A stretch of 34,925 nucleotides of DNA from Eubacteriaceae bacterium (GTDB lineage Bacteria > Bacillota > Clostridia > Eubacteriales > Alkalibacteraceae): positions 1 to 34,925 of the forward strand of contig JAAXUP010000015.1 in the NCBI GenBank assembly GCA_013335935.1, written 5' to 3'. Under the pieces are notes generated by a model. The model saw only the letters and a list, made by a program, of their open reading frames with translations, was not told the origin of the DNA and made no database searches. Numbering within the stretch: position 1 is the stretch's first letter; every line of letters begins with the position of its first letter. The translations under genes were made by a program, and so were the position numbers. Shown piece by piece: positions 1 through 17,030 of the stretch.

Positions 1-80
1 AGTGCAATAAAGTTTTCATATCCAAAGAACTCGCAGAGGGCAGGATGGCTGAGGTCGAAGAACAGCTGGAGGACAAATAA
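1..80 (+). CDS. C-terminal fragment of a small DVU_1557-like redox-type protein (5' end outside window)
   Basis: An open frame enters from the left edge and stops at TAA 78-80. The readable residues are CNKVFISKELAE followed by GRMAEVEEQLEDK. From memory this charged tail, right after a Cys, resembles the end of the small CxxC-type redox proteins annotated as DVU_1557 family, which sit beside TrsS-type radical SAM genes. The context agrees: such a radical SAM gene starts at 1460, separated only by an IS630 insertion. A diverged version of the same tail lies at 10121-10213, just before the second gene cluster. Only about 25 residues are visible, so the family call is inference; the open frame and the shared tail are seen directly. 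Confidence 0.5.
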   Translation, partial: CNKVFISKELAEGRMAEVEEQLEDK

Positions 81-125
81 AGAGGGTCCGTCCCAAGGAT
101 CCAAGGGTGGATATGGATTGACGTA

Positions 126-152
126 GTATAACGTTCGCTAATAACTTGTGCG
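126..152 (+). repeat. IS630 left terminal inverted repeat
   Basis: This end starts GTATAACGTTCGCTAA and pairs imperfectly with the right end at 1353-1379. The outer flank is the TA at 124-125. Confidence 0.8.
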
Positions 153-154
153 GA

Positions 155-1300
155 CTATAACATAACTTCATCCATTTTATACGTCCAGCGATATACAACT
201 GGGGAAGCGTTGACTTCATTTATATACCGATAAATCCGACTTACAAGTTCTTCTTTACTTTTGACCCTGATACCTCTCAAAAATTGCTTTGTCATTTTCC
301 CAAAGAAACTTTCTATCAAGTTTAACCATGAACCATGCTTAGGTGTAAACACAAACTCAAAGCGCCCCGGTCTTGATGAAAGATATTGGTTCGTTTCCTT
401 TGATTTATGTGCTGAATGATTATCGAGAACCAATCGGATTTTATCCCCGGCAGGGTATTTCTCATCAAGCAGTTTTAAGAATTCAATGAAATCAGAACTT
501 TTGTGAGTATCCCTTACTAAGGGTATGATTTCGCCTGTTAATAAGTCCATGCCGGCCAGAAATGATATCGTTCCAAGGCGTTTGTATTCACTATCTCTTC
601 CGACGAAACCGTGTTCCACAGATGGCCGTAAATCATCTACGGTATTTGCAATAGCTTGAATACCAGGCTTTTCATCATAAGATATGGTAACTATTTTGTT
701 CTCCTCAAGAGGAATCAAGTTTCCTTTTTCATCAAAGCACAATTCTATTTGCTTATAGACGAGAAGAACATCATGCATCTTACTCTCAAAATCAGGATCC
801 CTTTTTTCAAGATAATAACGGATCCTATGCGGTTTAATATCCAATGCATCAAGTATGTCATGAATAGTAGAATTTGAAATATTGTTCAGTCCTGGATATC
901 CTGCGTTAATACAGTGCTCTCTTATATGTTCTTGAAGTTTCTTGTACGTCCACAGTTCTTGAGCATAGCCTAGGTCAACCGGTCTACTGCATGCAAGATT
1001 GATTATCCAAACTTTTTCATCATCAGTAATAACAGACGGTTTACCGCTTCGTTCATTGTCATTGATGGCGTATTCAAAACCAGCTGAGAGGTATCTCTTT
1101 ATAATATTTGAAACTGTATTTCGATGAACACCAATCGCAGTAGAAATCTCGATATTGTTCATCCCTTCAGAACATAAAAGAATAATTTTTGCTCGTTGAA
1201 CTTTTCGATGTTCCTCAGTTTGTGATTTCGAAAGTTTTTCAAGTCGTTTTTTATCATCAGCACTTAAAACAAGTTTTGAATATTTACTATATGTGTTCAT
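155..1300 (-). CDS. IS630 family transposase
   Basis: DDE transposase of the IS630/Tc1-mariner superfamily that cuts and joins element ends at TA targets. The N-terminal third is a helix-turn-helix region (GVHRNTVSNIIKRYL) with a winged-helix type linker. The catalytic triad is visible as SYDEKPG, then LVLDNHSAHKS, then PKHGSWLNLIESFF. At 381 residues it is full length with no frameshift. I place the start at ATG 1300 because a GGAGG box lies 7 bases upstream; a TTG five codons earlier overlaps that box and is an unlikely start. It stops only 29 bases from the left end of the element. It is transcribed against the flanking radical SAM gene. Confidence 0.95.
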   Translation of the reverse strand: MNTYSKYSKLVLSADDKKRLEKLSKSQTEEHRKVQRAKIILLCSEGMNNIEISTAIGVHRNTVSNIIKRYLSAGFEYAINDNERSGKPSVITDDEKVWIINLACSRPVDLGYAQELWTYKKLQEHIREHCINAGYPGLNNISNSTIHDILDALDIKPHRIRYYLEKRDPDFESKMHDVLLVYKQIELCFDEKGNLIPLEENKIVTISYDEKPGIQAIANTVDDLRPSVEHGFVGRDSEYKRLGTISFLAGMDLLTGEIIPLVRDTHKSSDFIEFLKLLDEKYPAGDKIRLVLDNHSAHKSKETNQYLSSRPGRFEFVFTPKHGSWLNLIESFFGKMTKQFLRGIRVKSKEELVSRIYRYINEVNASPVVYRWTYKMDEVML

Positions 1301-1352
1301 GTCTATATCCTCCAATTACTTTGATATAAACATTATAACACATTTTATGCAT

Positions 1353-1379
1353 CGCACAAAGAATTAACGAACATTATAG
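1353..1379 (-). repeat. IS630 right terminal inverted repeat
   Basis: Read inward on the minus strand it starts CTATAATGTTCGTTAA, matching the left end. The outer flank is the TA at 1380-1381. Confidence 0.8.
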
Positions 1380-1459: not shown

Positions 1460-2824
1460 GTGGGAAAAAAGGTGCTGCATCAAACAGAAAGCGTATGTCC
1501 TGTTTGTTTAAAAAAAATACCTGCAAGTCATGTAGAAAATAAAGGGGACGTGTACCTGGAAAAGGAATGCAGCGAGCATGGCGCTTTTTCTACGGTACTA
1601 TGGCGTGGAGGCTTCGAACTCCAATACCACACTTGGTTTAAGGATAAAGACCCCATACGACCTTCTTTCAAAAACAGAGATATCGAAAGGGGATGCCCGT
1701 TTGACTGCGGACTCTGTGCAGATCACAGACAGAATACGTGTTGCATTTTATTGGAAGTCACAGAGCGATGCAACCTTCATTGTGCATTCTGTTTTGCTCA
1801 AAGCGGAGGCCACAAGACCGATCCCACTTATGAAACAATCAATGGGTGGTTGGAAGGCCTGGCTTCGGATGGAAAACCCTATATTCAATTGTCAGGGGGG
1901 GAACCGACGGTACGGGATGATCTGCCTGAGATCATCAAACGGGCCAGACAGCTTGGATTTCCCTACGTACAGCTTAATTCCAACGGCCTTCGTTTGGCTC
2001 TTGAGAAGAATTATGCCAAGAAGTTGAAAGAGGCAGGTCTTTCATCGGTTTTTATGCAGTTTGATGGAACAAAGGATGATATTTATCAGAAGCTGCGAGG
2101 TAGAAAACTTCTGGACTTAAAGAAGTCAGCCATTGAAAATTGCGGCGACGCCCTTTTGGGGGTTGTTCTTGTACCCACGGTCGTGCCTGGCGTCAATGAC
2201 AAGAATCTTGGAGAGATGATAAAGTTTGGCTTGGAAAGAGCCCCCAACGTCCGAGGAATCCACTTTCAGCCTGTCAGTTATTTTGGCAGGTATCCTGAAG
2301 CTCCATCGGACGAGCAAAGAATTACCTTGCCAGAAGTTCTTAGTGCCATGGAAAAGCAAACTCAAGGCATGATTCAGATTGAAAATTTCGTTCCGTCGGG
2401 TTGTGACCATGCCCGTTGCGGCTTTCATGGCGATTTTGTTGTTATGCCGAAAAGTGTGCCAAAAGCCTTGACCCGCAAGAAGGAACCTTCCGCATGCTGC
2501 AATAGTATGGGGTTGTCTGCAGTGGAAAAAAGTCAGAATTTTCTTTCAAGGCGATGGGAACGAAAGAACCTTGCAAAGAGTGAGGATTCCTTGGAGGAGA
2601 ATACGGACTACGATGATTTGGACACTTTTGTTGAGCGGGTTCGGTCCCACGGATTTACCATTACTGGAATGTCGTTTCAGGATTGCTGGAATTTGGATTT
2701 GGAACGGTTGAGAGAGTGCAGTTTGCACGTGTTAAGCCCGGATGGAGATAGAATTCCATTCTGTGCATTTAACTTGAGCAACATGGAAGGAAAGGGATTG
2801 TATCGTGGACGTGAAAAAAAATAA
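1460..2824 (+). CDS. radical SAM enzyme with N-terminal Cys clusters, TrsS/Tes-like (copy 1)
   Basis: Radical SAM protein of 454 residues. The N-terminus carries a zinc-ribbon-like CPVC (13-16) with a later C37/H40. A second Cys cluster, GCPFDCGLC (79-86), and a CC pair (94-95) precede the radical SAM motif CNLHCAFC (C104, C108, C111), which holds the [4Fe-4S] cluster that cleaves SAM. LSGGEPTVRDD follows. This layout is shared with tetraether lipid synthase (Tes), MJ0619-type enzymes and the family I recall as TrsS. The substrate is unknown. The start is GTG 1460, with AAAGGA 8 bases upstream. It is clearly paralogous to the gene at 12850; compare the shared GVHFQPVSYFGR-type segment. It ends at a hairpin. 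A DVU_1557-like tail precedes it across the IS, suggesting a partial second copy of the 10236-17030 system. No in-frame UGA is present, so it is not a selenoprotein. Confidence 0.85.
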   Translation: MGKKVLHQTESVCPVCLKKIPASHVENKGDVYLEKECSEHGAFSTVLWRGGFELQYHTWFKDKDPIRPSFKNRDIERGCPFDCGLCADHRQNTCCILLEVTERCNLHCAFCFAQSGGHKTDPTYETINGWLEGLASDGKPYIQLSGGEPTVRDDLPEIIKRARQLGFPYVQLNSNGLRLALEKNYAKKLKEAGLSSVFMQFDGTKDDIYQKLRGRKLLDLKKSAIENCGDALLGVVLVPTVVPGVNDKNLGEMIKFGLERAPNVRGIHFQPVSYFGRYPEAPSDEQRITLPEVLSAMEKQTQGMIQIENFVPSGCDHARCGFHGDFVVMPKSVPKALTRKKEPSACCNSMGLSAVEKSQNFLSRRWERKNLAKSEDSLEENTDYDDLDTFVERVRSHGFTITGMSFQDCWNLDLERLRECSLHVLSPDGDRIPFCAFNLSNMEGKGLYRGREKK

Positions 2825-5406: not shown

Positions 5407-5411
5407 AGTTT

Positions 5412-5437
5412 GTAGGGAACGCATTTTGTGCGTTCCG
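5412..5437 (+). repeat. REP-like hairpin 2 (GTAG + different palindrome)
   Basis: GTAG is followed by an 8-bp perfect stem, GGAACGCA / TGCGTTCC, with loop TTTTG. It lies 5 bases after hairpin 1 in the same orientation, so the pair looks like a head-to-tail REP doublet with different stem sequences but the same foot. Confidence 0.6.
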
Positions 5438-5450
5438 CAAGAAAAATAGA

Positions 5451-5479
5451 TTGACACTTATTTGATTGAAAAATATAAG
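5451..5479 (+). promoter_or_regulatory. sigma-A type promoter for the HAD-hprK-PHP-cyclophilin operon
   Basis: TTGACA at 5451-5456, a 17-base spacer, then TATAAG at 5474-5479. This is a near-consensus housekeeping promoter 33 bases before the ATG at 5512. It sits just downstream of the REP-like doublet. Confidence 0.75.
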
Positions 5480-5511
5480 CATTTAAGCATAACAGAAAAT
5501 GGAGGACAATT

Positions 5512-6318
5512 ATGAAATACAAACTGATTGCAGTCGATATCGACGGGACCTTATTGAATTCGGAAGGAAAACTTACGGAAGTAACAAGAAGTGCAATTCG
5601 GAAAGCGGTAGATGCGGGAGCAGTATTCACCATATCCACCGGAAGGCCTGTACAGGGGGTCACTTCCCTGGTGGAGGAAATTGGGCTGGATCTTCCGCTG
5701 ATCACTTATAATGGTTCAATGGTTCTGAAAGCAAAAACAAGAGAAATCATCTATTCCAGGACCATGACGGACAAGGATGCGAAAATGGTCTATCAGACCG
5801 CAGTTGAATGGGATGTGAATATGATCCTATGGTCTGACAACAAACTCTATTCAACCAGGGATAACGAAAAATCACGGTACTACAGCCATATTACAAAAAC
5901 CGAATTGAATATCATCGAAAATTTTGAAGACATAAAAGCGGGGATCACAAAAATATTATGGTATGAAGAACCGGAGGTGTTAAAGGACTTTTTAGTGGAG
6001 TTGGATAAGCTTCTTGACAAAGACAGCGTAGTATTCCATACCTCACGGCCTTACTTTCTTGAATTTGTGGACAAGGGAGCATCAAAAGCCATTGCCATAG
6101 AAAAACTGGGAGAAGAATATGGAATAAAACGGGAAGAAATCATCGCTATTGGTGATTCCTACAACGATATTTCCATGATCAGCTACGCAGGTCTCGGAGT
6201 TGCGATGAATAATGCACCGGATGACATTAAAGCTATCGCTGATTACATTACGAAAAGCTGCGACGAGGATGGAGTCGCGCATGTTATACGAGAATTCATA
6301 CTGGGGGAAGAGGAATGA
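5512..6318 (+). CDS. Cof-type HAD-IIB family phosphatase
   Basis: Haloacid dehalogenase superfamily hydrolase of the Cof/YidA type, which dephosphorylates small phosphorylated metabolites such as sugar phosphates. Motif I is AVDIDGTLL near the N-terminus with the nucleophile and acid aspartates; motif II is STGRP; the C-terminal motifs are K in DKGASKAIAIEKL and IGDSYNDISMI. The 268 residues are typical, with the IIB cap in the middle. ATG 5512 has GGAGG 8 bases upstream. It is the first gene of an operon and overlaps hprK by four bases (ATGA), implying translational coupling. Exact substrate cannot be read from sequence. Confidence 0.92.
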   Translation: MKYKLIAVDIDGTLLNSEGKLTEVTRSAIRKAVDAGAVFTISTGRPVQGVTSLVEEIGLDLPLITYNGSMVLKAKTREIIYSRTMTDKDAKMVYQTAVEWDVNMILWSDNKLYSTRDNEKSRYYSHITKTELNIIENFEDIKAGITKILWYEEPEVLKDFLVELDKLLDKDSVVFHTSRPYFLEFVDKGASKAIAIEKLGEEYGIKREEIIAIGDSYNDISMISYAGLGVAMNNAPDDIKAIADYITKSCDEDGVAHVIREFILGEEE

Positions 6319-7235
6319 AAGAAATAACCATAGAAAAATTCTGTAAAGATCTAAAGCTCAAACTGGTATGCGATGGTGGACAACAAAACATTTATGTGAG
6401 CAACAGCAGCATCAACCGGCCAGGACTGCAGCTTTATGGCTTTTACGAACATTTTGATTCCGACAGGGTTCAAATCGTTGGAAAAGTTGAAATAAGCTAT
6501 CTGAATCATATGACGCCTGAGGCAAGAAAGGCAAGTGTGGAAAAACTTTTTCAGTATACCTTTCCCTGCCTAATCATGGCATGGGACATTGAGGTAGATG
6601 ACGTGTATTACGATTTGGCAAAACAATACAACAAAATCATACTTAAGTCGGAAAAGCATACCTCAAAGGTGATCAATATGGTCATTAATTATCTTGATGA
6701 ATATCTTGCCCCTACAGTGTCATTGCATGGGGTGCTTGTGGAAGTATTTGGCGTGGGGGCTCTGATTACAGGATCCAGCGGCGTAGGTAAAAGCGAAACT
6801 GCACTGGAACTGGTAAAAAGAGGCCATCGACTGATCTCCGACGACGTTGTGGAAATAAAAAGGGTTGGGGATGTGCTGACTGGCAGAGCGCCTGATCTTC
6901 TAAGGCAGTATATGGAAATTCGGGGTATCGGGATCATAGATATCAGGACACTTTACGGCATAGGCGCAGTGAAGGAATCCGTGGAAATCGATATGAACAT
7001 CAACCTTGAAAAATGGGAACCTGGCAAATACTATGACAGGTTGGGCCTTGATGAAATCTACCTGAATATTCTGGGTGCGGAAATACCGGAAGTGGTGATC
7101 CCGGTTACCACAGGAAGAAATCTTGCCATCATTATCGAAGCGGCGGCAAAAAATAATCGGCTTAAATTCATGGGAATAAACTCAGCTCAGGAATTTTGTG
7201 ATAGAATATTACTGAACAATGAACAAAAAGGGTAA
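6315..7235 (+). CDS. hprK: HPr kinase/phosphorylase
   Basis: Bifunctional enzyme that phosphorylates and dephosphorylates HPr at Ser-46, controlling carbon catabolite repression in Gram-positive bacteria. The 306 residues include H138 in SLHGVLVEVFG, the Walker A motif GSSGVGKS (153-160), ISDDVVEIKR (acidic pair 176-177), and the family signature EIRGIGIIDIRTLYGIG (201-217). Length and motifs are complete. Translation is probably coupled to the upstream HAD gene through the ATGA overlap. In Clostridia hprK often lies near uvrC, as here. No PTS gene is nearby in the window. Confidence 0.97.
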   Translation: MKEITIEKFCKDLKLKLVCDGGQQNIYVSNSSINRPGLQLYGFYEHFDSDRVQIVGKVEISYLNHMTPEARKASVEKLFQYTFPCLIMAWDIEVDDVYYDLAKQYNKIILKSEKHTSKVINMVINYLDEYLAPTVSLHGVLVEVFGVGALITGSSGVGKSETALELVKRGHRLISDDVVEIKRVGDVLTGRAPDLLRQYMEIRGIGIIDIRTLYGIGAVKESVEIDMNINLEKWEPGKYYDRLGLDEIYLNILGAEIPEVVIPVTTGRNLAIIIEAAAKNNRLKFMGINSAQEFCDRILLNNEQKG

Positions 7236-7254
7236 GAAGGAAGGACTGAATCTT

Positions 7255-8019
7255 ATGAAAACTGTACTCGATACCCATATGCATACCGTTGCCTGCAACC
7301 ATGCATACAGTACAATTGCTGAGAATGCCGCAGCAGCCAGAGAAAAAGGTCTGGAACTAATTTGTATAACCGAGCATGGCCCTAAACTGCCGGGAGGACC
7401 CCATTACTATTTTTTTGCAAATCTTAAGGTTGTCCCAAGTGAAATCAACGGGGTGAAAATACTCAAAGGCATTGAGACAAACATCCTGGATTACGACGGC
7501 ACATTGGATATCCCTGAACCGTACAAAAATCGGATGGAAATCGTACTTGCAGGTCTTCACAGCAAGTGTTATACGCCAGGTTCCAAAAAAGAGAATACCC
7601 GGGCAATCATTAAAACCATCGAGAATAAACTCGTGGATATTATGGTGCACTTAGGAAACCCTGCCTATGACCTGGACTATGAGGATATCTTAAAAGCGGC
7701 TAAGGATAATGACAAGCTGATCGAAATTAACAACAGTTCTTTTGTGCATTCAAGACCAGGCAGTTATCCAAATTGTATAAAAATCGCTGAAAAGTGCATG
7801 AAGGATGGAATAAAAGTGACCCTTGGCAGTGATGCCCATATCGCTAACGAGGTTGGAGAATTTGGAGAAGTCGTTAAAATGTTTGATGAGATGAATTTTC
7901 CAGAAGAACTGGTGATGAATACCAGTGTTGAGAAGCTTGTCAGCTATCTGAAGGGAAAGAACAAGGTGCTGTTTCTGAATCCAAGAGAAAATTTAAAAAA
8001 ACACAGAGGAGATGTATAA
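7255..8019 (+). CDS. PHP domain phosphoesterase (YcdX-like)
   Basis: Member of the PHP metal-dependent phosphoesterase superfamily, probably a phosphatase with a trinuclear metal site. Metal ligands are visible: LDTHMHT (H8 and H10), CITEHGP, AGLHSK, VHLGNP, and near the end [11 protein letters not shown] place the start at ATG 7255 (254 residues), because AAGGA lies 9 bases upstream and the homologous region begins there. A start at 7219 would add 12 Lys-rich residues overlapping the end of hprK. It ends one base before the cyclophilin ATG. The substrate is unknown. Confidence 0.88.
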
Positions 8020-8020
8020 A

Positions 8021-8542
8021 ATGACACAAAATCCAATCGTAACAATCAAACTTGAAGATGACCGAGTGATAAAATTAGAACTTTACCCAGACAAGGCGCC
8101 GAACACGGTGAACAATTTTCTGTCTTTGGTAAAAAAAGGATATTATAACGGCCTGGTTTTTCATAGGGTAATCAATGGGTTTATGATCCAGGGGGGATGC
8201 CCTAATGGAACAGGCACAGGTGGACCGGGTTATACTATCAAAGGAGAATTCAAGATCAATGGCGTCGATAATGACATCAAGCATGATCGAGGCGTCATTT
8301 CCATGGCAAGAGCGATGGACATGAACTCCGGCGGATCACAATTTTTCATTATGCACAAGAATTCGTCCCATCTTGATGGCCAGTATGCAGCATTTGGAAA
8401 GGTCATCGAAGGAATAGAAGTGGTGGATGAAATCGCGTCAGTAAAAACGAATTTCCAGGATAAGCCGGCGGAAAAAGTAATCATCAGGGAAATGACAGCG
8501 GACACTTTCGGAGTTGAATACCCAGAGCCAGAGCGAGTTTAG
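8021..8542 (+). CDS. cyclophilin-type peptidyl-prolyl cis-trans isomerase
   Basis: Cytoplasmic prolyl isomerase that assists protein folding. The 173 residues cover one cyclophilin domain: [36 protein letters not shown] and AAFGKVIEG are the active-site segments with the catalytic Arg, Phe and Gln positions. No signal peptide is present. I chose ATG 8021 because GAGGAG (8006-8011) is 9 bases upstream; an ATG at 8012 directly abuts that box. It is the last gene of the operon and is followed by a strong terminator. Confidence 0.95.
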
Positions 8543-8550
8543 AAGAAATG

Positions 8551-8594
8551 AAAAAAGCAAGGGGACAGTCGTCAGGCTGTCCCCTTGCTTTTTT
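8551..8594. terminator. bidirectional intrinsic terminator
   Basis: An 18-bp perfect stem, AAAAAAGCAAGGGGACAG with its complement, encloses an 8-base loop. A and T runs at the two ends give a U tract on either strand. It lies between the convergent cyclophilin and DegV genes and serves both. Confidence 0.93.
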
Positions 8595-8596
8595 GA

Positions 8597-9427
8597 CTAA
8601 TAAGCGATCACGATTCCACCATTGTCCATGTACACTGCTCCAAGTCCCTGGGCATCTGTCATGACGATTTCTTCAAAATTATACGCTTCCTTGATCATGT
8701 TTTTAACCGATTCAGCTTTCTCCGGTGCGTTGCAGTGAATGATCCCGATTCTTTTTCTCGTGGCATCTCCTTCGATCCCAATCAGTTCAACCATTCTTTT
8801 TAAGGCGTTTTTACTTCCCCTGGATTTTTCCACTAAAACGATTTCACCATCAACAGCAGTGAGTATGGGTTTAATGAGTAAAAGTTGGGCAAAAATCCCT
8901 GCCAGCCGGCTCATTCTTCCGTTTTTGATCAGATTATCAAGATTCTCCAGAACAAAAAGGGTTTTCATTCCTTTGATATAATCCTCCACATGATCCACGA
9001 CCTGTGAGGGAGTCATGTTGTCATCAACCGCTTCCTTGATTTTCATTGCGATAAGTGTTTCTGCGATAACGGCACTTAAGGAATCAAAGATATGAATGAA
9101 TTTTTCACCAAATTGTTCAAAGTACATATTCCGTGCAGATATTGCACTGTTGTATGTACCGCTGAGCTTTGAGGAAATCGTAACTACAAAAATATTCTCA
9201 GCTTCTTTATATTTATCAAAGAAATGTTGTGGTGATGGACATGCTGTTTTTACCGCGTTGGCTGACATTTTCATTTTCTCCAGCAAAGATTTTACCGGGA
9301 GGCTTCCATCATCCACAATGTCTTCACTGCCAACGGTCAACGTGAATGGCACCGAGGCATAAGGTATGGTTTTTTTTAGCTCATCATTAAAGTCACAGCT
9401 GCTTCCTACAACAATTTTATAGTCCAT
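8597..9427 (-). CDS. DegV family fatty acid-binding protein
   Basis: DegV/FakB-type protein that binds a fatty acid and in FakAB systems presents it to a kinase for acyl-phosphate formation. The N-terminus IVVGSSCDFNDEL, then SSKLSGTYNSAISA, the LENLDNLIKNGRMSR segment and the C-terminal AVYMDNGGIVIAY fit the family. The 276-residue length is typical. Start at ATG 9427, with AGGAGG 6 bases upstream; the frame is open 13 codons further but without a ribosome site. No fakA-like kinase is nearby. It reads alone and ends at a shared terminator. Confidence 0.92.
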   Translation of the reverse strand: MDYKIVVGSSCDFNDELKKTIPYASVPFTLTVGSEDIVDDGSLPVKSLLEKMKMSANAVKTACPSPQHFFDKYKEAENIFVVTISSKLSGTYNSAISARNMYFEQFGEKFIHIFDSLSAVIAETLIAMKIKEAVDDNMTPSQVVDHVEDYIKGMKTLFVLENLDNLIKNGRMSRLAGIFAQLLLIKPILTAVDGEIVLVEKSRGSKNALKRMVELIGIEGDATRKRIGIIHCNAPEKAESVKNMIKEAYNFEEIVMTDAQGLGAVYMDNGGIVIAY

Positions 9428-9500
9428 AGTGAACCTCCTATAATTAGTATAGTTTAATCTTATCATAGAAAGGTTGATAGTTAAACTAATTAAAATCAGG

Positions 9501-9529
9501 TTGACAAATCCGGCAATATTTGCAATAAT
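9501..9529 (+). promoter_or_regulatory. promoter for an untranslated leader RNA
   Basis: TTGACA at 9501-9506, a 17-base spacer and AATAAT at 9524-9529. It faces the structured leader at 9574-9660 and the terminator at 9677-9703, with no coding start in between, so the transcript begins with a long untranslated RNA. Confidence 0.6.
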
Positions 9530-9573
9530 TTTATGTATATATAAATAGTTTTGTGAGTATGCAACGATTTTTT

Positions 9574-9660
9574 CGATCCTGAAAACCTATGGGGACTAGG
9601 ACGTTAGGGTTTATCTGGAAACGGAAAAGCCTCCCGTGTGGAAAGAAAAGAGGATTTGGC
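9574..9660 (+). ncRNA. structured leader RNA, candidate riboswitch (Moco/Tuco-like, tentative)
   Basis: This stretch lies between a promoter and an intrinsic terminator and codes for nothing. A closing helix can form between GATCCT (9575-9580) and AGGATT (9651-9656). Inside, AAACC.TA near 9583 can pair with TAGGGTTT near 9605. The conserved-looking strings CTGGAAACGGAAAAGCCTCCC and GTGTGGAAAG follow. The GCCTCCC plus GGAAA strings remind me of the molybdenum/tungsten cofactor riboswitch, and downstream genes are molybdopterin-related. I could not fold or search it. What is seen is the promoter-structure-terminator arrangement; the class is inference. Confidence 0.4.
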
Positions 9661-9676
9661 ATAATTTGATGATGGA

Positions 9677-9703
9677 ATGCGCTCTTTTCGGGCGTGTTTT
9701 TTT
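9677..9703 (+). terminator. intrinsic terminator ending the leader RNA
   Basis: The stem ATGCGCTC / GGGCGTGT (with G-U pairs) has loop TTTTC and is followed directly by a run of seven T. It lies 17 bases after the candidate aptamer, the position expected of a transcriptional riboswitch expression platform. Confidence 0.7.
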
Positions 9704-10062
9704 GACAGACACCTTAGCTAGCTAAAATAAAAAATGTTGCAGCACTTTCAAGGGTAAGACATTTTAATTGATCAATGATCTTATTGAAATCGATTTCTGC
9801 GTACCTGCAGCTTTATAATGTGTACCGGCCAAGAAGAAGAATCTTATGAAGCCGTTCTCATTATATGGCAGGGAATGCGACCATTGACGCAGCAAATAAC
9901 TCATTGAATCCATGCGAAAGTCTGACGGGACCTTCGGGACCTATGAGGAAATTAGAAATACTACCTGGGAAGTGACCTTTATGCAATGCTGGAGGAATTT
10001 AAAAAGAATCCAATTATTGTGGCGAAGAAACACGCTTAAAAAAAATAAATAAATATTATATT
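9704..10062 (+). other. gene-free stretch with possible coding debris
   Basis: No credible complete gene is seen. Short open pieces in different frames are broken by stops. One reads YYLGSDLYAMLEEFKKN then PIIVAKKHA and stops at 10037-10039, which looks like a natural protein end but has a stop just before it at 9953-9955. I do not recognise it. A TAGCTAGCTA palindrome lies near 9717. The stretch may be the decayed first gene(s) of the cluster downstream. Confidence 0.5.
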
Positions 10063-10102
10063 AATATTCTGATGCTTCCTTTACAGGAAGTATCAGAATA
10101 TT
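10063..10102. repeat. long perfect-type hairpin, possible terminator
   Basis: The left arm AATATTCTGATGCTTCC (10063-10079) pairs over 17 bases with 10086-10102, with one G-U pair, around the loop TTTACA. On the plus strand only TTTC follows, so plus-strand termination would be weak. On the minus strand a long T-rich run follows. It separates the coding debris at left from the DVU_1557-like tail at right. Confidence 0.7.
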
Positions 10103-10120
10103 TCACATTGGGAGCAGAGG

Positions 10121-10213
10121 CACTATGGATGTCAAAGAAAATCCTTGGTTTGGATAGAAGATTTGCTCAAGGGAAAGTTATTTGAGGTCGAGAAGGCTTT
10201 GGAGGATAAATGA
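10121..10213 (+). pseudogene. degenerate tail of a DVU_1557-like small protein
   Basis: An open frame without a usable start ends in TGA 10211-10213. It reads WIEDLLKGKLFEVEKALEDK, aligning with the tail at 1-80 (ISKELAEGRMAEVEEQLEDK): nine of the last 22 positions are identical, including G, EVE and LEDK. The upstream part is cut off by the hairpin at 10063-10102 and lacks the rest of the protein. It sits 22 bases before the ligase gene, the place where a DVU_1557-family gene would be expected. A decayed gene is the simplest reading; a frameshifted but intact gene is less likely. Confidence 0.5.
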
Positions 10214-10235
10214 ATGCGCAGAGGAGAATTAACCA

Positions 10236-11552
10236 ATGATTTCAAAAACGCCGTTGGAAGTGTGGATTGCCGGAAAAATCAATAAAAATACGGATGAACG
10301 ACTTACCAGAGAACATATCGAACGTTACCAGGTAGATAAGCTGAATGAAATGATAGCTTACGTAAAATACAATAGCCGTTTCTACAAAAATCATCTTGCC
10401 GAATTTAAAGCAGGAGAGATAAAAACTGTGGATGACATCAAATATCTGCCATTTACTGATTTTCGGGATTTTAACAAAAATCCAAATGCTTTTGCATGCG
10501 TAAGCCAGCAGCAGATCTCTCGAATCATGACGGTACAGACCTCAGGCACAACTGATGCTCCTAAAAGAGTTTTTTACACGGAAGAGGATCAGGAGTCCAC
10601 GATTGACTTCTTTCAATTCGGAATGTCAAATCTGGCTGCCAAAGGAGACAACGTTCTGATCCTTCTGCCAGGAAATACACCTGGCAGCGTAGGGGATCTT
10701 CTGCACACGGCCCTCTCAAGATTAGGGGCTCGGGGCGTTAAATATGGCCTTGTAATGGATCCAATCCACACACTTAAAACTATGGAGGAAGAAAATATCA
10801 ATGTACTGGTGGGCATACCCGTCCAACTTCTCTCCTTGGCCAGGGCATCCAAGAGAACTAAAAGAAAGCTGAAATTAAAAAGCATTCTCCTTTCAACAGA
10901 TTATGTGCCCGGATCAATCGTAGATATTCTGGAAAACACTTGGGATTGCCGCGTATTTAATCATTATGGGATGACTGAAACCGGATTGGGAGGAGCTGTT
11001 CAGTGTGAAGCCTTAAGTGGATGCCATATGAGAGAAGCTGACCTTCTGTTTGAAATTGTAGATCCTGTAACTGGATCTACCGTAAAGGACGGAGAGTATG
11101 GAGAGGTCGTTTTCACAAGCCTCACTGCAAAAGGCACACCTTTTATCCGTTACAGGACTGGAGATATCAGTAGATTTTTAAAAGAATCGTGCCCTTGCGG
11201 TACGGTGCTGAAGAGTATGGACACGATCAAAGGGCGGATCAAAAACAGGATCTTTCTTCGAGATGATATTGTTATCAATATGTATGAATTGGACGAAGCA
11301 TTATTTAAATTAGAGGGTATTGTCAATTTCAAGGCATCAATATCCAGCAAACCGGATATCCAGCAGCTTAATCTGGAAGTTCAATATGACCAGCCCCTTG
11401 AAAATGATGAGCTTCTAAAAGTGTATGCCAAAGCAATGACAATTCCGTCAATTTGCCAGGCTGTCCATAAGGGATTTCTTAAAATAAACGTTGAAAAACA
11501 GCTCCAGGGCTTTGAAATATCGTCATTGAAACGGATAATTAAAGTTGAATGA
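10236..11552 (+). CDS. PaaK-like AMP-forming CoA ligase family protein (DVU_1553-like)
   Basis: Adenylate-forming enzyme of the phenylacetate-CoA ligase type, which activates a carboxylate with ATP and usually passes it to CoA. The 438 residues carry the phosphate loop TSGTTDAPK (102-110), YGMTETG (244-250), the ribose-binding RYRTGD (305-310) and the hinge region IKGRIKNR (331-338). C319/C321 (CPCG) occur as in PaaK. Substrate is unknown. ATG 10236 has GAGGAG 9 bases upstream. It is the first intact gene of a seven-gene plus-strand cluster. From memory it matches the family named DVU_1553, found with TrsS-type radical SAM genes. Because the cluster is molybdopterin-related, the acid activated may be a cofactor precursor or a small modifier; that is inference. 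Confidence 0.85.
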   Translation: MISKTPLEVWIAGKINKNTDERLTREHIERYQVDKLNEMIAYVKYNSRFYKNHLAEFKAGEIKTVDDIKYLPFTDFRDFNKNPNAFACVSQQQISRIMTVQTSGTTDAPKRVFYTEEDQESTIDFFQFGMSNLAAKGDNVLILLPGNTPGSVGDLLHTALSRLGARGVKYGLVMDPIHTLKTMEEENINVLVGIPVQLLSLARASKRTKRKLKLKSILLSTDYVPGSIVDILENTWDCRVFNHYGMTETGLGGAVQCEALSGCHMREADLLFEIVDPVTGSTVKDGEYGEVVFTSLTAKGTPFIRYRTGDISRFLKESCPCGTVLKSMDTIKGRIKNRIFLRDDIVINMYELDEALFKLEGIVNFKASISSKPDIQQLNLEVQYDQPLENDELLKVYAKAMTIPSICQAVHKGFLKINVEKQLQGFEISSLKRIIKVE

Positions 11553-11631
11553 TATTGCATTTGTGAATACTATTCGTCAATTTGCCCTAAATAAAACCGC
11601 ATATGGTATGTGAATGATTGGAGGTTAAAAA

Positions 11632-12357
11632 GTGAGTTACTATAATGCATATGAAAGCGACACGATGTGGAGTGCCATGGGAAATATGTTGAGACCAGGA
11701 AATTTTGACCTGACAGATATAGGTGTAAAACTCAGCAAATTCTCGCCTCAGGATAAAGTATTGGATCTAGGCTGCGGCAGGGGAGCTACTGTCGCTTACC
11801 TGAATGAAAAATACGATCTCAGTGCTGTGGGAATTGACTCCTCCGAAAAAATGATTAAAAATGCCAGGGAAGAGATGAAAAACGGAGATTTTATCCTAGG
11901 CAGGGGAGAAAACCTTCCCTTCAGGGACGAGATCTTTCAAGGGGTCTTTGCTGAATGTACACTATCCTTGATGGATGATTTAGACAGCACGCTGAAAGAA
12001 GTGCACAGAGTGCTGAAAAACCATGGATACCTTATTATTACTGATGTATATGCGAGAGGTCCTGGTTATGTATCGGAATTGGAAGCATTCTCATTGAATA
12101 GCTGCATGAAGGGTCTTCATGATTTAGATCATTTACGTGAGAAACTTGATTTTCACGGATTTAAGGTCGAATATTTCGAGGACCAGAGCAAGTTATTAAC
12201 AGATCTGATGATAAAAATTATTTTTTCTTATGGATCCATGGCAAATTTCTGGGAGTCGGTCACAAATGGAAATATCAATGGATATCATCTGCAGGATGCA
12301 TTAAAGATATGCAAGCCAGGATATTTTATAATGGTAGTCAGGAAAGGAGTTAAGTGA
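11632..12357 (+). CDS. class I SAM-dependent methyltransferase (TrsM/DVU_1556-like)
   Basis: Rossmann-fold methyltransferase of the UbiE/Methyltransf_11 type. Motif I is VLDLGCGRGATV (43-54), the acidic residue closing strand 2 is in VGIDSSEKM (D69), and ENLPFRDEIFQGVFAECTL is the typical motif II/III area. Length is 241 residues. Start at GTG 11632, with GGAGG 7 bases upstream. The next gene starts immediately after its stop (TGAATG), so the two are likely coupled. The substrate is unknown. The family I recall as TrsM accompanies TrsS radical SAM proteins. Confidence 0.85.
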   Translation: MSYYNAYESDTMWSAMGNMLRPGNFDLTDIGVKLSKFSPQDKVLDLGCGRGATVAYLNEKYDLSAVGIDSSEKMIKNAREEMKNGDFILGRGENLPFRDEIFQGVFAECTLSLMDDLDSTLKEVHRVLKNHGYLIITDVYARGPGYVSELEAFSLNSCMKGLHDLDHLREKLDFHGFKVEYFEDQSKLLTDLMIKIIFSYGSMANFWESVTNGNINGYHLQDALKICKPGYFIMVVRKGVK

Positions 12358-12813
12358 ATGGACGATATTGCTTTTGGTATGTTTAAACTCGCCAACGCTG
12401 GATATTGCTGCAGTCAAATTATGATAAAAATGGTATTGGATCTAGAGGAAAAGGAAAATAGTGATTTGATAGGTGCGGCAAATGGACTTTGTTTAGGAAT
12501 GGGAGGGCTGCAAAAAACCTGTGGCGTTCTTGCAGGTGGCATTTTGATCCTTGGACTTTATGCAGGAAAAAGAAGTGATACAACATATCCAAGAGATGAA
12601 TTTTACGGAATGCTGAAAGAATATACGGAGTGGTTTGAAGATGAGTTCGAAAGTACAGATTGTATCGATATTATTGGAGTATGCGACATACAGGACTATA
12701 CAAATAATCAACAATACCGAATGAAATGTGGAGATATCCTGACAAAGAATTTTGAAAAACTTCTTCAAATACTTGAAGAAAACGGATTCGAATTTGGAAA
12801 TCGAGAGAATTAG
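12358..12813 (+). CDS. C_GCAxxG_C_C family protein (DVU_1555-like)
   Basis: Small Cys-rich protein of 151 residues in the C_GCAxxG_C_C family, of putative redox or metal-binding function. The signature is visible as YCCSQ (C17, C18), then LCLGMGGLQKTCGVLAGG (C45, C55) and ILGLYAGK. Further Cys are C102, C109 and C124. The start ATG abuts the stop of the methyltransferase gene, with AAAGGAG about 10 bases upstream. No signal peptide. Family members often sit beside redox enzymes; here all neighbours belong to one cluster. The exact biochemical role is not established. Confidence 0.88.
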   Translation: MDDIAFGMFKLANAGYCCSQIMIKMVLDLEEKENSDLIGAANGLCLGMGGLQKTCGVLAGGILILGLYAGKRSDTTYPRDEFYGMLKEYTEWFEDEFESTDCIDIIGVCDIQDYTNNQQYRMKCGDILTKNFEKLLQILEENGFEFGNREN

Positions 12814-12849
12814 GTCTGTGTACGAAGAACGAAAGAAAAGGGGAAGAAG

Positions 12850-14199
12850 ATGAGCATATGTCCTGTTTGTGGGGAGAAAGTCGAATCCCAAAAAGTAGCA
12901 GAAGAAGATAAAGTATACTTAATAAAAAATTGCCCCCAGCATGGGAACTTCAAGTCATTGATCTGGAAGGGAAATCTTTCTTATGATAAATGGAATATAC
13001 CAGGGAACAACACAAAACCTTTTCATGCAAACACGAAAGTGGACAAGGGCTGTCCATACGATTGCGGTCTGTGCGAAAATCATAAACAACAGGCTTGCTG
13101 TGTACTGATCGAATTAACGGATAAGTGCAATCAACATTGTCCATTTTGCTTCGCTAATGCTAAAAAAATAAATGACAGGATGCATCAGGAGAATGACTGT
13201 ATTGAAAACACTGATCCTACCCTTGAAGAAATAAAAGGAATTTACGAATTTCTCCTTGAGCAAAGCCCGGACAGACCCTTTAATATTCAGCTGTCAGGCG
13301 GAGAACCAACCTTAAGAGAAGATTTGCCTCAGATTATTTCCTTAGGCAGGAAACTCGGTTTCCCATACATCCAGATCAATACAAATGGGCGAATTTTAGC
13401 AGAAGATTCCAACTATGTAAAAATGCTTAAAGAGGCGGGATTGTCCTCAGTGTTTTTACAGTTTGATGGTACAAACGATGAGATATACCTGAAGACCAGA
13501 GGAGAAAATCTCCTCGATATCAAGAAAAAGGCGATCGCTAATTGCGCAAAGCAAGAGCTTGGTGTTGTTTTAGTGGTAACGGTAGTCCCGAATATCAATG
13601 TGGATAATCTTGGGAAAATTATCCAATATGTCATGGACAATACGCCTTATATACGAGGGGTCCACTTCCAGCCGGTAAGTTATTTTGGAAGATTTCCTAA
13701 GGAACCTGATGACGAGGACAGGATCACCATACCCCAGCTTATTCAAGGGATTGTTGAGGGCACCAATGGGAAAATATCTTCAGGCGATTTTATCCCTCTT
13801 TTAACCGGCCATGCCATGTGCTCTTTTCATGGCAATTTTGTGGTCATGGAGGACGGAAGTCTGGCATCCATTTCCGCTGATCCGAAAGATGCCTGTTGCA
13901 GCAATAAGGAAAAAGCGATTGTCAATGCACGAAATTTCATTGCAAAAAAGTGGAGCTTTTCTAAAAGGCATAATGATAGAATAGAAATTTCTCCGATGAC
14001 CAGGGATAATAATTTTGATGAATGGGATCTGTTTGTCAATCGGATCAATAATCATGGCTTCAGCGTAACCGCCATGGCTTTCCAGGATAAATGGAATCTG
14101 GATTTAGAGAGACTTCAAAAATGCAGGGTTCATATTGCTACAAAAGACAAAAAGCTTATTCCATTTTGCGCATACAATTCACTGATCAGAAAAGAATAA
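12850..14199 (+). CDS. radical SAM enzyme with N-terminal Cys clusters, TrsS/Tes-like (copy 2)
   Basis: Radical SAM protein of 449 residues, paralogous over its whole length to the one at 1460. It has CPVC (4-7) with C28/H31, GCPYDCGLC (67-75), CC (83-84) and the SAM-radical motif CNQHCPFC (C93, C97, C100), then LSGGEPTLREDLPQ. The C-terminal half has MCSFHGNFVVMEDGS and DACCSN, a further Cys cluster shared with copy 1 (SACCNS). ATG 12850 has GGGGAAG 4-10 bases upstream. The multi-Cys layout resembles tetraether synthase and MJ0619-type enzymes that bind extra iron-sulfur clusters. Those act on unactivated carbons. The substrate here is unknown. No UGA is in frame. Confidence 0.88.
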   Translation: MSICPVCGEKVESQKVAEEDKVYLIKNCPQHGNFKSLIWKGNLSYDKWNIPGNNTKPFHANTKVDKGCPYDCGLCENHKQQACCVLIELTDKCNQHCPFCFANAKKINDRMHQENDCIENTDPTLEEIKGIYEFLLEQSPDRPFNIQLSGGEPTLREDLPQIISLGRKLGFPYIQINTNGRILAEDSNYVKMLKEAGLSSVFLQFDGTNDEIYLKTRGENLLDIKKKAIANCAKQELGVVLVVTVVPNINVDNLGKIIQYVMDNTPYIRGVHFQPVSYFGRFPKEPDDEDRITIPQLIQGIVEGTNGKISSGDFIPLLTGHAMCSFHGNFVVMEDGSLASISADPKDACCSNKEKAIVNARNFIAKKWSFSKRHNDRIEISPMTRDNNFDEWDLFVNRINNHGFSVTAMAFQDKWNLDLERLQKCRVHIATKDKKLIPFCAYNSLIRKE

Positions 14200-14248
14200 T
14201 AATAAATCAGAATGCAGGATGAGTAAGAAATAACAGGAGGAATTGCAG

Positions 14249-15271
14249 ATGAAAGAAGTATCGGTTTATGATGCTGTAGATATGGTTCTTGCTCACGATT
14301 TGACCCAGATTATTCCTGGGGAATTTAAGGGCAGTAAATTTAAAAAAGGGCATATCGTGTGTAAGGAGGATATTGAAGTTCTACTTAGCATGGGAAAAAA
14401 GCACCTTTATGTAGTCAGCAAAGAAGAGACGGATATCCATGAAGATGAGGCGGCGATGCGAATCGCATGTGCTGCATCCGGAAAAGGGATCAAGCTTCTT
14501 ACCCCTGGAGAAGGGAAGATAGAACTTGTAGCGGAATATGATGGACTTCTGAAAATTGATACCTCATTGCTCAATCAACTCCTGGACCAGGATGAGATCA
14601 TGTTTGCCACCATTCATGAAAATCAGCAAGTTAAAGCAGGACAAAAAGTGGCAGGCACCCGTGTGATCCCATTATATGTAAATGAAAGCATCGTAAACGG
14701 CGCTGAAAAGGTATGTAAAAACGGACCAATCGTTGAAGTATTACCACTGAGGTCACTTAAAATTGGCCTTGTTACAACAGGCAGCGAGGTTTATTCCGGA
14801 AAGATCAAAGATGCTTTTGGACCTGTTTTACAGAAGAAATTCAGTGTTTTGGGGAGTACAGTTGTAAAGCAACTTTTTGCTGACGATGACGAAAACATGA
14901 TTGCAGATTGTATTAAGCAGCTGATCGCAGAAGGTGCGGAGATGATCGGAGTGACAGGAGGTATGTCAGTCGATCCAGATGATAAAACCCCTTCAGGAAT
15001 TCGATGGGCAGGGGGACACATAATTGCATATGGAGCACCGGTTTTGCCTGGAGCGATGTTTTTACTGGCTTATATCGGAAACATCCCAGTTGTTGGGCTC
15101 CCAGGTTGTGTAATGTACAGCAGAGTCAGTATTTTTGATCTTATTGTTCCCAGGATTCTTGCAGGAGAAATTCTGACAAGAAAAGATATGAAAAAGCTGG
15201 CGCATGGAGGATTTTGCTTGAACTGTACCACCTGTACCTATCCAAATTGCGGATTTGGAAAAGCCTATTAG
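14249..15271 (+). CDS. MoeA/MogA-like molybdopterin-binding protein with C-terminal four-Cys tail
   Basis: Protein of 340 residues with a MoCF_biosynth (MPT-binding) domain near 170-310: GLVTTGSEV (174-182), VTGGMSVDPDDKTP (235-248) and NIPVVGLPGCVMY (278-290). The N-terminal 165 residues are MoeA-like in position but shorter than true MoeA. The last 20 residues hold CLNCTTCTYPNC (C323, C326, C329, C334), a metal or Fe-S binding tail not found in standard MoeA. Start at ATG 14249 with AGGAGG 8 bases upstream; a TTG at 14243 is too close to that box. Standard MoeA inserts molybdate into adenylylated molybdopterin. The role here may be a specialised version, in the same operon as a MobA/MocA-like transferase. 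Confidence 0.85.
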   Translation: MKEVSVYDAVDMVLAHDLTQIIPGEFKGSKFKKGHIVCKEDIEVLLSMGKKHLYVVSKEETDIHEDEAAMRIACAASGKGIKLLTPGEGKIELVAEYDGLLKIDTSLLNQLLDQDEIMFATIHENQQVKAGQKVAGTRVIPLYVNESIVNGAEKVCKNGPIVEVLPLRSLKIGLVTTGSEVYSGKIKDAFGPVLQKKFSVLGSTVVKQLFADDDENMIADCIKQLIAEGAEMIGVTGGMSVDPDDKTPSGIRWAGGHIIAYGAPVLPGAMFLLAYIGNIPVVGLPGCVMYSRVSIFDLIVPRILAGEILTRKDMKKLAHGGFCLNCTTCTYPNCGFGKAY

Positions 15272-15293
15272 ACAATAAAAGGCGGTGAATAGA

Positions 15294-15914
15294 GTGAGAA
15301 GAATATATCTGATTCGGCATTGCAAACCGATTATCCCAAATGATGGTTCCATTTGCATTGGAGTAACCGATCTGCCTTTAAGTGAATCTGGAAAAGTGTG
15401 TGCCCAAAAGTTAAAAGAATTTTTTAGTCAACTTGAATTTAATGATATTTACTCAAGTACCTTAAGCAGAGCCAAGGAGACTGCAGAAATAATTGCAGGC
15501 GTTAAACAGGATGTGTTTTATGAGAATCGATTTAATGAAATCGATATGGGTATATGGGACGGAATGTCATTCGATGAAATCAAGGAGAAATACCCTGAGC
15601 AGCATGAAGAAAGAGGGAAAGATCTGGAAAAATATATTGTGCAAGGCGGAGAAAGCTTTTCTATGTGTCAAAAACGAGCATTTCTTGCATTGAACAGTAT
15701 CGTGAATAATACAAAAGGAAATATTGTAATTGTATCCCATGCAGGAATAAACAGGGTTTTGATCAGCTGGTTGCTGGAGAGAAATTTAAACAATTTTTTT
15801 TCTATACCTCAGCCCTATGGCTGCATCAATATCTTAACAGAAAGCAGTGGGAATTATTGTGTGGAGAAGATAGGATTGACTTTAGAAGAAATTGAAAAAG
15901 GGAGGGGAGCTTGA
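15294..15914 (+). CDS. histidine phosphatase family protein (CobC/PGM-like)
   Basis: Branch-1 histidine phosphatase of 206 residues, similar in size to alpha-ribazole phosphatase (CobC). The catalytic His is in YLIRHCKP (H9, with Cys replacing the usual Gly of RHG). SSTLSRAKETAEI, NEIDMGIWDG and IVSHAGINR (second catalytic His, about 149) complete the site. Start at GTG 15294 fits the AGGCGG box 8 bases upstream; GTG 15285 overlaps it. It lies between the MoeA-like and the nucleotidyltransferase genes and stops 3 bases before the latter. No other cobalamin biosynthesis gene is nearby, so a cofactor phosphate as substrate is inference. Confidence 0.85.
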   Translation: MRRIYLIRHCKPIIPNDGSICIGVTDLPLSESGKVCAQKLKEFFSQLEFNDIYSSTLSRAKETAEIIAGVKQDVFYENRFNEIDMGIWDGMSFDEIKEKYPEQHEERGKDLEKYIVQGGESFSMCQKRAFLALNSIVNNTKGNIVIVSHAGINRVLISWLLERNLNNFFSIPQPYGCINILTESSGNYCVEKIGLTLEEIEKGRGA

Positions 15915-15917
15915 GTT

Positions 15918-17030
15918 GTGACAAATCAAAGAATTGCAGCAATTATCGTAGCGGCGGGGTTTTCATCAAGGATGAATGCCTTCAAACCTTTACTTGAAAT
16001 GGGGTCATCCACCATAATTGAACAAGCGATTCATACATTTCAGCAGGTTGGAATAAATGAGATTATTGTTGTTACAGGGAACCATGCAGAAAGATTGGAA
16101 GCTCACATCGCTTATACCGGAGCAATCTGCCTTCGCTCAGATTATACGAAAAATAAAATGTTCGACTCAGCCTGCCTGGGACTTGAATATCTTAAAAGTA
16201 AGTGTGACATGGCGTTTTTTACTCCGGTGGATGCTCCTCTTTTTACAATTTATAGTCTTAAAAAGATGATTTCTAGAATGAATTTGCTTAATAATTCAGT
16301 AATAATCCCATGCTTTCTGAATGAAAAGGGACATCCCCTCCTTATCAATTCCAAATGCTTTGAAGAGATTTTGTCCTATGAGGGATCATCAGGGATGCAA
16401 GGTGCAATCGGCAGATTAGAAGATCTGGATCTATTGAATTTACCTGATCCCGGGCTGATCATGGATGCGGATACTCCCCAGGATTATGAAGTCCTGAAGC
16501 GTTATGAACAGGAAAGACCTGTACCGTCAAAAGAGGAGTGTATGAAAATTCATGAATATTTTAGGACTCCGAAAAATATCATAAAACATTGTGAAATGGT
16601 CGCCAGTGTGGGTGAAGAGATATCAAAATCTCTTACTGATCATGGCTATTTCCTTGATCAAAGAAAAGTTCAGGCGGCAGCACTCCTGCATGATCTCATG
16701 AAATATAAAAAAAACCATGCAGCCGAGGGAGCAGAATTGCTGAAAGACTTGGGGTACACTGGCATATCGCCTATTGTTGAAGTTCACATGGAGCTTGATG
16801 AATATGATATATCTCACATCACGGAAAAAACCGTGGTCTATTTAGCAGATAAATTGGTGCTGGAAGATATCGTAATCTCTTTGAGAGAGCGTTTTGAACA
16901 TAAAATGAAGTCATATCATAATGACGAACAGGCATGCAAAGCTATTCAAAGAAAGTATATTCAGGCTCTTCACGTGGAGAAACTGATATTTCAGATAATT
17001 AATGAATCAGGAAATATTAAGCCAACATAA
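15918..17030 (+). CDS. MobA/MocA-like NTP transferase fused to an HD domain (DVU_1551-like)
   Basis: Two-domain protein of 370 residues. Residues 5-195 are a nucleotidyltransferase: AAIIVAAGFSSRMNAFKPLL, FFTPVDAPLFT and DADTPQDY match MobA/MocA/YgfJ enzymes that attach GMP or CMP to molybdopterin. Residues 205-365 are an HD phosphohydrolase: H224 in IIKHCEMVA, H258-D259 in ALLHDLMKY, H267 and H290 in VEVHMELD. A transferase joined to a hydrolase could add and remove a nucleotide on the same cofactor; that is inference. Start GTG 15918, with GGAGGGGAG 8 bases upstream. It is the last gene of the cluster. I recall the N-terminal family as DVU_1551. No good terminator is seen after it. Confidence 0.88.
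   Translation: MTNQRIAAIIVAAGFSSRMNAFKPLLEMGSSTIIEQAIHTFQQVGINEIIVVTGNHAERLEAHIAYTGAICLRSDYTKNKMFDSACLGLEYLKSKCDMAFFTPVDAPLFTIYSLKKMISRMNLLNNSVIIPCFLNEKGHPLLINSKCFEEILSYEGSSGMQGAIGRLEDLDLLNLPDPGLIMDADTPQDYEVLKRYEQERPVPSKEECMKIHEYFRTPKNIIKHCEMVASVGEEISKSLTDHGYFLDQRKVQAAALLHDLMKYKKNHAAEGAELLKDLGYTGISPIVEVHMELDEYDISHITEKTVVYLADKLVLEDIVISLRERFEHKMKSYHNDEQACKAIQRKYIQALHVEKLIFQIINESGNIKPT

Follow-up and report, generated by a model that had tools for sequence, protein, structure and literature searches.

The seven genes at positions 10236-17030 of the stretch analysed here, the 34,925 nucleotides of contig JAAXUP010000015.1 from a Eubacteriaceae bacterium (assembly GCA_013335935.1; hereafter the window), almost certainly form an accessory set dedicated to the Desulfovibrio gigas-type aldehyde oxidoreductase (AOR), a molybdoenzyme that carries molybdopterin cytosine dinucleotide (MCD). 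The cluster encodes an adenylate-forming ligase, a methyltransferase, a C_GCAxxG_C_C protein, the radical S-adenosylmethionine (SAM) enzyme TrsS, a MoeA-like protein, a histidine phosphatase and a MocA-like nucleotidyltransferase fused to an HD domain.

Evidence for this dedication comes from co-occurrence across 199 genomes of the phylum, taken as a single even sample. TrsS was counted in 13 of them, comprising 12 matches over the model cut-off and G072, where the gene is truncated by a contig end, and the AOR family NF045668 in 15, comprising 13 over the cut-off and contig-end fragments in G073 and G076. The AOR was present in all 13 TrsS-positive genomes and in 2 of the 186 without TrsS (Fisher 1.3e-18), while any molybdenum hydroxylase (PF02738) was matched in 98 of the 199, with all 13 TrsS-positive genomes among them (hypergeometric 6.5e-5); these p-values, and the one that follows, treat genomes as independent and therefore overstate the strength of the association. 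The DVU_1553-family ligase was found in 12 genomes, every one of them TrsS-positive (p = 2.3e-18; two of the 12 matches lie under the curated cut-off), and the small four-cysteine redox protein DVU_1557 in precisely the 13 genomes that have TrsS, all three families being confined to AOR-bearing genomes. The AOR is the sole enzyme that the xanthine oxidase, dimethyl sulfoxide (DMSO) reductase and tungsten AOR family models match in G030 and G072. An earlier note on this DNA had proposed a link to a molybdenum hydroxylase that would fall if the families did not co-occur with such enzymes or if the genes scattered independently. The distribution across the 199 genomes (13/13 against 2/186) does not refute this link, and our data support it in a narrower form, tied to the AOR subfamily NF045668 and not to xanthine dehydrogenases or hydroxylases generally.

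The genes are also linked on the chromosome. The AOR and the gene for a pyridine nucleotide-disulfide/dicluster oxidoreductase (the dicluster protein) lie within the TrsS locus in G119, G151, G003, G155, G147, G033 and G042 (twice), and likewise in G096, G030, G072, G140 and the Bacillota metagenome-assembled genome (MAG) G201, while the TrsS locus of G076 carries part of an AOR. Locus L001 of Chloroflexaceae begins within the dicluster gene, and locus L002, from a MAG, at the methyltransferase gene, so that in both an AOR would fall off the contig; the Chloroflexaceae genome holds an AOR fragment at the end of another contig. Locus L081 shows a gene order that is common among these loci: MoeA-like protein, AOR, dicluster protein, DVU_1557, methyltransferase, C_GCAxxG_C_C protein, TrsS, ligase, XdhC, nucleotidyltransferase and phosphatase, with variants of this order in L003 and L083, and its XdhC belongs to the NCBI 'XdhC family aldehyde oxidoreductase maturation factor' family (465.5 bits). 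Relatives of the MoeA-like protein adjoin the AOR in other genomes, and a scan with one TrsS sequence as query returned four loci.

The cluster and the wider system in this genome

The seven open reading frames (ORFs) are separated by successive gaps of 79, 0, 36, 43, 13 and 3 bp, and a glucose-6-phosphate isomerase gene begins 114 bp 3' of the last (Table 1). ORF calls and hidden Markov model (HMM) scans confirm the tight, one-strand succession described in the earlier note, and curated NCBIfam matches support its identification of the set with the DVU_1551-1557/TrsS neighbourhood. Five of the seven genes pass curated NCBIfam cut-offs; the MoeA-like and phosphatase genes fail them. In the HMM scan none of the MoeA equivalog models passes for the MoeA-like protein (best 46.8 of 536 bits), the ORF of which may start at the ATG at 14249 instead of the TTG at 14243, and the CobC alpha-ribazole phosphatase model TIGR03162 gives the phosphatase 149.8 bits, just under its cut-off of 162.9. 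The domains PF12804 and PF01966 are both matched in the DVU_1551-family fusion, whose nearest general family is MocA (TIGR03310; 115.2 bits, under the cut-off of 186.45). Matches to promoter-like and terminator-like patterns occur at about the same rate in the window and in shuffled sequence, and the operon boundaries are therefore not established. The DVU_155x/TrsS families have already been named by curators, so the novelty of the locus is limited.

Table 1. Features of the DVU_155x system in this genome. Positions without a prefix are those of the window; C202 is a second contig of the same genome.
Feature	Position	Strand	Match or remark
DVU_1557-family four-cysteine redox protein gene, 3' end	1..80	+	gene start C202:18394; NF045645 match on both contigs
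Insertion sequence, between DVU_1557 and TrsS2	128..1377 (ends approximate)	-	transposase ORF 155-1315; Pfam DDE_3, HTH
Second TrsS (TrsS2), copy beside the AOR run	1460..2824	+	NF045646, 631.7 bits (cut-off 490)
DVU_1553-family adenylate-forming (AMP) ligase	10236..11552	+	NF045666, 459.7 bits (cut-off 300)
DVU_1556-family SAM methyltransferase	11632..12357	+	NF045667, 243.2 bits (cut-off 155)
DVU_1555-family C_GCAxxG_C_C protein	12358..12813	+	NF045669, 149.4 bits (cut-off 103)
TrsS radical SAM enzyme, cysteine form, divergent paralogue	12850..14199	+	NF045646, 575.0 bits (cut-off 490)
MoeA-like molybdopterin-binding protein	14243..15271	+	PF00994, 67.7 bits (26.6); cysteine-rich C-terminal tail CLNCTTCTYPNC
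CobC-like histidine phosphatase	15285..15914	+	PF00300, 156.1 bits
DVU_1551-family fusion, MocA-like NTP transferase and HD	15918..17030	+	NF045665, 375.8 bits (cut-off 315)
D. gigas-type AOR, the genome's only one	C202:13234-16062		NF045668
Pyridine nucleotide-disulfide/dicluster oxidoreductase	C202:16142-18391		

The DVU_155x system reaches beyond position 10236, with TrsS2 and the end of the DVU_1557 gene also in the window and the AOR and dicluster protein on contig C202. The final 127 bases of C202 (18512-18638) are identical to window positions 1-127 and have no other copy in the genome, which places the start of the window inside the DVU_1557 gene; the 65-residue translation of this gene ends LEDK, and its stop codon ends at window base 80. 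This overlap stops at the left end of an insertion sequence (IS), a likely cause of the assembly break, whose terminal inverted repeats, read from the sequence, are imperfect (TATAACGTTCGCTAATAACTTGTGCGG and TATAATGTTCGTTAATTCTTTGTGCGA). With the junction drawn from sequence overlap and not from reads, the order would be AOR, dicluster protein, DVU_1557, the IS, TrsS2, an interval of ~7.4 kb and the seven-gene cluster. The interval encodes UvrC, a HAD hydrolase, HPr kinase, a PHP protein, cyclophilin and DegV. The sole XdhC of the genome lies on contig C61 among unrelated genes.

Two loci of genome G096 carry other combinations of these families. Locus L104 (contig C45, ~5,200-14,400) lacks TrsS but has a ligase, a methyltransferase and a phosphatase alongside the genome's second AOR-like gene (893 aa); it also encodes a TusE/DsrC sulfur relay protein and, judged by eye, a cysteine desulfurase-like protein and a ModE-like regulator, a possible sign that the ligase/methyltransferase branch involves sulfur transfer. 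In L090 (contig C114) a cysteine-rich protein of 244 aa, DUF5714-like by eye, is encoded beside TrsS at 14220-14954 in place of the C_GCAxxG_C_C gene, for whose product it possibly substitutes.

TrsS and tetraether lipid synthase

Neither TrsS copy contains an internal stop, and both are therefore cysteine forms and not selenoproteins; selenocysteine is optional in the family, which is named '(seleno)protein'. The two copies share 46% identity. In the tree TrsS2 clusters with the type II TrsS proteins (support 96/88), and the copy at 12850 forms a long, unplaced branch. The closest solved relative is tetraether lipid synthase (Tes, also GDGT-MAS; 7tol, E = 4.9e-90), which has a rubredoxin site (C9-X2-C12-X20-C33-X2-H36), an N-terminal cluster with C73, C77, C80 and a histidine, a radical SAM cluster and a C-terminal cluster in which one ligand is a labile methionine, and which forms C-C bonds by way of a bond between substrate carbon and cluster sulfur (PMC9433317). 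Among 18 TrsS proteins, numbered here as in the 12850 copy, the Tes-equivalent residues C4, C7, C28 and H31 and C68, C72, C75 and H78, the radical SAM CX3CX2C cysteines C93, C97 and C100, and the Tes-equivalent ligands C324, C425 and C440 are invariant in every member. By these residues TrsS probably uses the same set of metal sites as Tes.

The likeness to Tes has clear limits. C83 and the C349-C350 pair, likewise invariant in 18/18 TrsS, are additional to the Tes set and lacking in the Tes-like relatives from G042, G124 and G083, and the genomic context of TrsS is a molybdenum enzyme, not lipids. Against the Tes model NF045702 (cut-off 450) the 12850 copy scores 365.6 bits and TrsS2 361.7, both under the cut-off, and TrsS is consequently not classed as Tes. 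The C-terminal third, including the region of the labile Met439 and the lipid pocket of Tes, is largely unaligned with 7tol and is also unresolved in an AlphaFold model built from five sequences (mean predicted local distance difference test score, pLDDT, 49). TrsS shares with the tungsten oxidoreductase radical SAM maturase TIGR04317 a genomic association with a molybdenum- or tungsten-pterin enzyme, but it fails that model by a wide margin (47.7 bits, cut-off 380). Bacterial Tes homologues are mentioned in the Tes paper as having an unknown role, on which TrsS, a bacterial branch of the tetraether-synthase family in a non-lipid context, now bears (PMC9433317).

More distant relatives were also seen. 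A third, very divergent TrsS-like protein is encoded in this genome (G000:C229:2201-3583, locus L094; 368 bits), seemingly without the C-terminal cluster cysteines, and its neighbour reads as a sugar phosphotransferase system (PTS) transporter. Tes-like radical SAM genes under both the TrsS and Tes cut-offs, at L096:9645-13147 (G124), L095:3399-7098 (G042:C62) and L099:838-4323 (G083:C129), adjoin a DMSO-reductase-family molybdoenzyme of 726-727 aa, assigned in G083 from gene length and order only; in G124 a MoeA gene is also near. The Tes/TrsS superfamily may thus have a broader tie to molybdenum enzymes. A general link of Tes/TrsS relatives to DMSO-reductase-family enzymes holds, from sequence, in G124 and G042 and fails for the C229 copy of this genome, and we rejected it.

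The aldehyde oxidoreductase and described counterparts

The AOR on C202 (942 aa) scores 1132.7 bits, narrowly over the NF045668 cut-off of 1100. It carries the motifs of two [2Fe-2S] clusters (CX4CX2C at 41 and CX2C...CXC at 101), has no FAD domain, and finds its best solved relatives in the AORs of Desulfovibrio desulfuricans and D. gigas (1dgj, 1sij), the latter having served as a model for molybdenum enzymes since its structure appeared in 1995. The AOR tree resolves two supported clades, type I and type II, and places the AOR of this genome in type II with those of G096, G042 (C103), G140, G030, G072 and G076. Six type II AORs extend across the active-site loop, and around the glutamate that aligns with the catalytic residue they read G[CA][AS]E.[FY]Q, as opposed to the canonical GVGELPL-like loop of type I; our AOR (GCAEVF) retains the glutamate but not the canonical loop. 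This altered loop suggests that the substrate of type II AORs differs from that of type I. Certain residues are invariant in the TrsS-linked AORs yet changed in sister AORs, which may merely track phylogeny.

To our knowledge, neither Escherichia coli paoABCD with MocA nor the Bacillus subtilis puc system includes a ligase, C_GCAxxG_C_C or TrsS gene. Both resemble the present system in having a hydroxylase-dedicated MocA-type cytidylyltransferase and an XdhC-type chaperone; MCD is the product of MocA-type enzymes, and in the xanthine oxidase family XdhC proteins carry out sulfuration and insertion of the cofactor (PMC2997495). Clostridium ljungdahlii has two tandem sets, CLJU_RS11815-11830 and RS11850-11870, that share the order AOR, FAD/CCG oxidoreductase, four-cysteine protein and C_GCAxxG_C_C protein, with the CCG protein proposed to swap electrons with a membrane carrier; in contrast to our locus, TrsS, ligase and methyltransferase are not mentioned for these sets (PMC5640608).

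In D. vulgaris DVU_1559 is the AOR, detected in the proteome (PMC10920352), and DVU1558 is described as a cysteine-rich/iron-sulfur protein (PMC3114432), matching the dicluster protein; compared by names and numbers, the D. vulgaris genes follow the order of L003. The DVU_1551-1559 locus contains the same families (NF045645, NF045646 and NF045663-NF045669), with the AOR heading the run of locus numbers. The system studied here differs in being split by ~7.4 kb and an IS, in its two TrsS copies and unlinked XdhC, and in its type II AOR. A literature search on DVU1551-1557 found no paper; TrsS appears in a 2026 selenoprotein review (PMC13188914), which credits it to Haft and Tolstoy 2025 (PMC12013261), whose earlier account of the neighbourhood may be fuller.

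Possible role and competing explanations

The families represented allow us to propose a model with two branches. In the first, the MoeA-like protein would handle Mo-molybdopterin, the DVU_1551-family protein would add CMP to molybdopterin to give MCD, and the unlinked XdhC on C61 would sulfurate and insert the cofactor. Molybdenum insertion is handled by MoeA-type proteins. The AOR would then draw two electrons from its substrate via its two [2Fe-2S] clusters and pass them to the FAD/CCG-domain dicluster protein. CCG-domain proteins deliver electrons to disulfides, quinones or similar carriers, and DVU_1557 is a candidate small electron carrier. For the second branch our preferred explanation, held at slightly under even confidence, is that the ligase, methyltransferase, C_GCAxxG_C_C protein, phosphatase and TrsS synthesise a dedicated low-molecular-weight redox partner, or a prosthetic group, that serves the AOR electron path. 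In this model, the ligase might activate an acid as its adenylate, the methyltransferase might methylate, and TrsS might use Tes-type chemistry to join an unactivated carbon through a C-C or C-S bond; we hold all of these steps with low confidence. The full explanation, with both an MCD branch and a redox-partner branch dedicated to the AOR, is likewise held at slightly under even confidence. The earlier note had read the genes as one linear pathway acting on one cofactor, and this scheme is not shown: the MoeA-like and MocA-like proteins fit ordinary MCD assembly, and the ligase, methyltransferase and TrsS may have a different target.

In the sampled genomes the D. gigas-type AOR subfamily is almost never found without the radical SAM enzyme, the ligase and the small redox protein, and should these genes prove necessary, a cofactor or modification would be missing from the present picture of AOR biology. 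We consider it somewhat unlikely that D. gigas-type AORs as a group require a protein modification or cofactor, so far unrecognised, that the Tes-type enzyme produces together with the four-cysteine protein, ligase and methyltransferase. If they do, new radical chemistry would serve the electron path of a molybdoenzyme.

Several observations weigh against dedication of the cluster to the AOR and against the two-branch model. In this genome the AOR is on another contig, XdhC is unlinked, and the 7.4 kb interval that separates TrsS2 from the cluster has no relation to the system. G073 and G083 have pieces of an AOR without TrsS, ligase or DVU_1557, these pieces being at contig ends, and the co-occurrence p-values take no account of phylogeny. 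The altered active-site loop of the AOR may mean that its substrate is something other than an aldehyde. Finally, the ligase, methyltransferase, TrsS and phosphatase have no known substrate or product, and modification of a protein is nearly as likely as synthesis of a small molecule.

Protein maturation is accordingly a close second among the explanations, although on its own we would not expect it to be correct. Here TrsS would modify DVU_1557, the AOR or the dicluster protein, and the ligase and methyltransferase would finish the modification. Modification of a small protein by a radical SAM enzyme encoded next to it is common. TrsS and DVU_1557 share an identical distribution (13 of the 199 genomes), their genes adjoin in G030 and G072, and in this genome the IS alone separates DVU_1557 from TrsS2. 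Furthermore, the C-terminal EDK of DVU_1557 is invariant in 11/11 sequences (the window/C202 gene and those of L001, L003, L081, L083, L085 and L090-L093), and the exact match in distribution together with this invariant terminus points towards protein modification. Conversely, small-molecule synthesis would be the more natural setting for an adenylate-forming ligase, a phosphatase and a nucleotidyltransferase, DVU_1557 resembles an ordinary zinc ribbon or rubredoxin-like carrier, and we found no modified residue described for a Desulfovibrio AOR.

The modified molybdopterin of the earlier note, in which the ligase, methyltransferase and TrsS alter the AOR pterin before or after CMP addition, now appears improbable. 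The MoeA-like and MocA-like genes do lie within the same run, and TrsS relatives adjoin DMSO-reductase-family enzymes in G042 and G124. However, the cofactor described for Desulfovibrio AORs, among them the D. gigas enzyme whose structure has been refined to 1.28 Å, is ordinary MCD (PMC12316806), which disfavours a modified pterin; the DVU_1559 AOR heads the same locus-number run, although whether D. gigas carries TrsS is not established.

Equally doubtful is a catabolic pathway in which the AOR, ligase, methyltransferase and TrsS act in succession on one substrate, the aldehyde being converted to the acid and then to an acyl adenylate or acyl-CoA, and in which the MCD genes are carried along. 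An acid-activating ligase adjoining an aldehyde-oxidising enzyme would suit such a pathway, as would the particular substrate suggested by the type II active-site loop, but the set is conserved in organisms as different as Clostridia-like genomes, Chloroflexaceae and Desulfovibrio, and no recurrent transporter or further catabolic enzyme was found among the neighbours. That TrsS is a bacterial tetraether-type lipid synthase with an incidental AOR link is very improbable, since the relationship to 7tol and the retention of every checked Tes metal ligand are set against a score under the Tes cut-off, a mostly unaligned C-terminal third and co-occurrence statistics that make the AOR link far from incidental.

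Two further genes of the window encode other proteins of note: a TIGR03960-family B12-binding radical SAM protein at 28288-30147 (956 bits), and a DUF2284 predicted metal-binding protein at 32342-32860 (149.5 bits).

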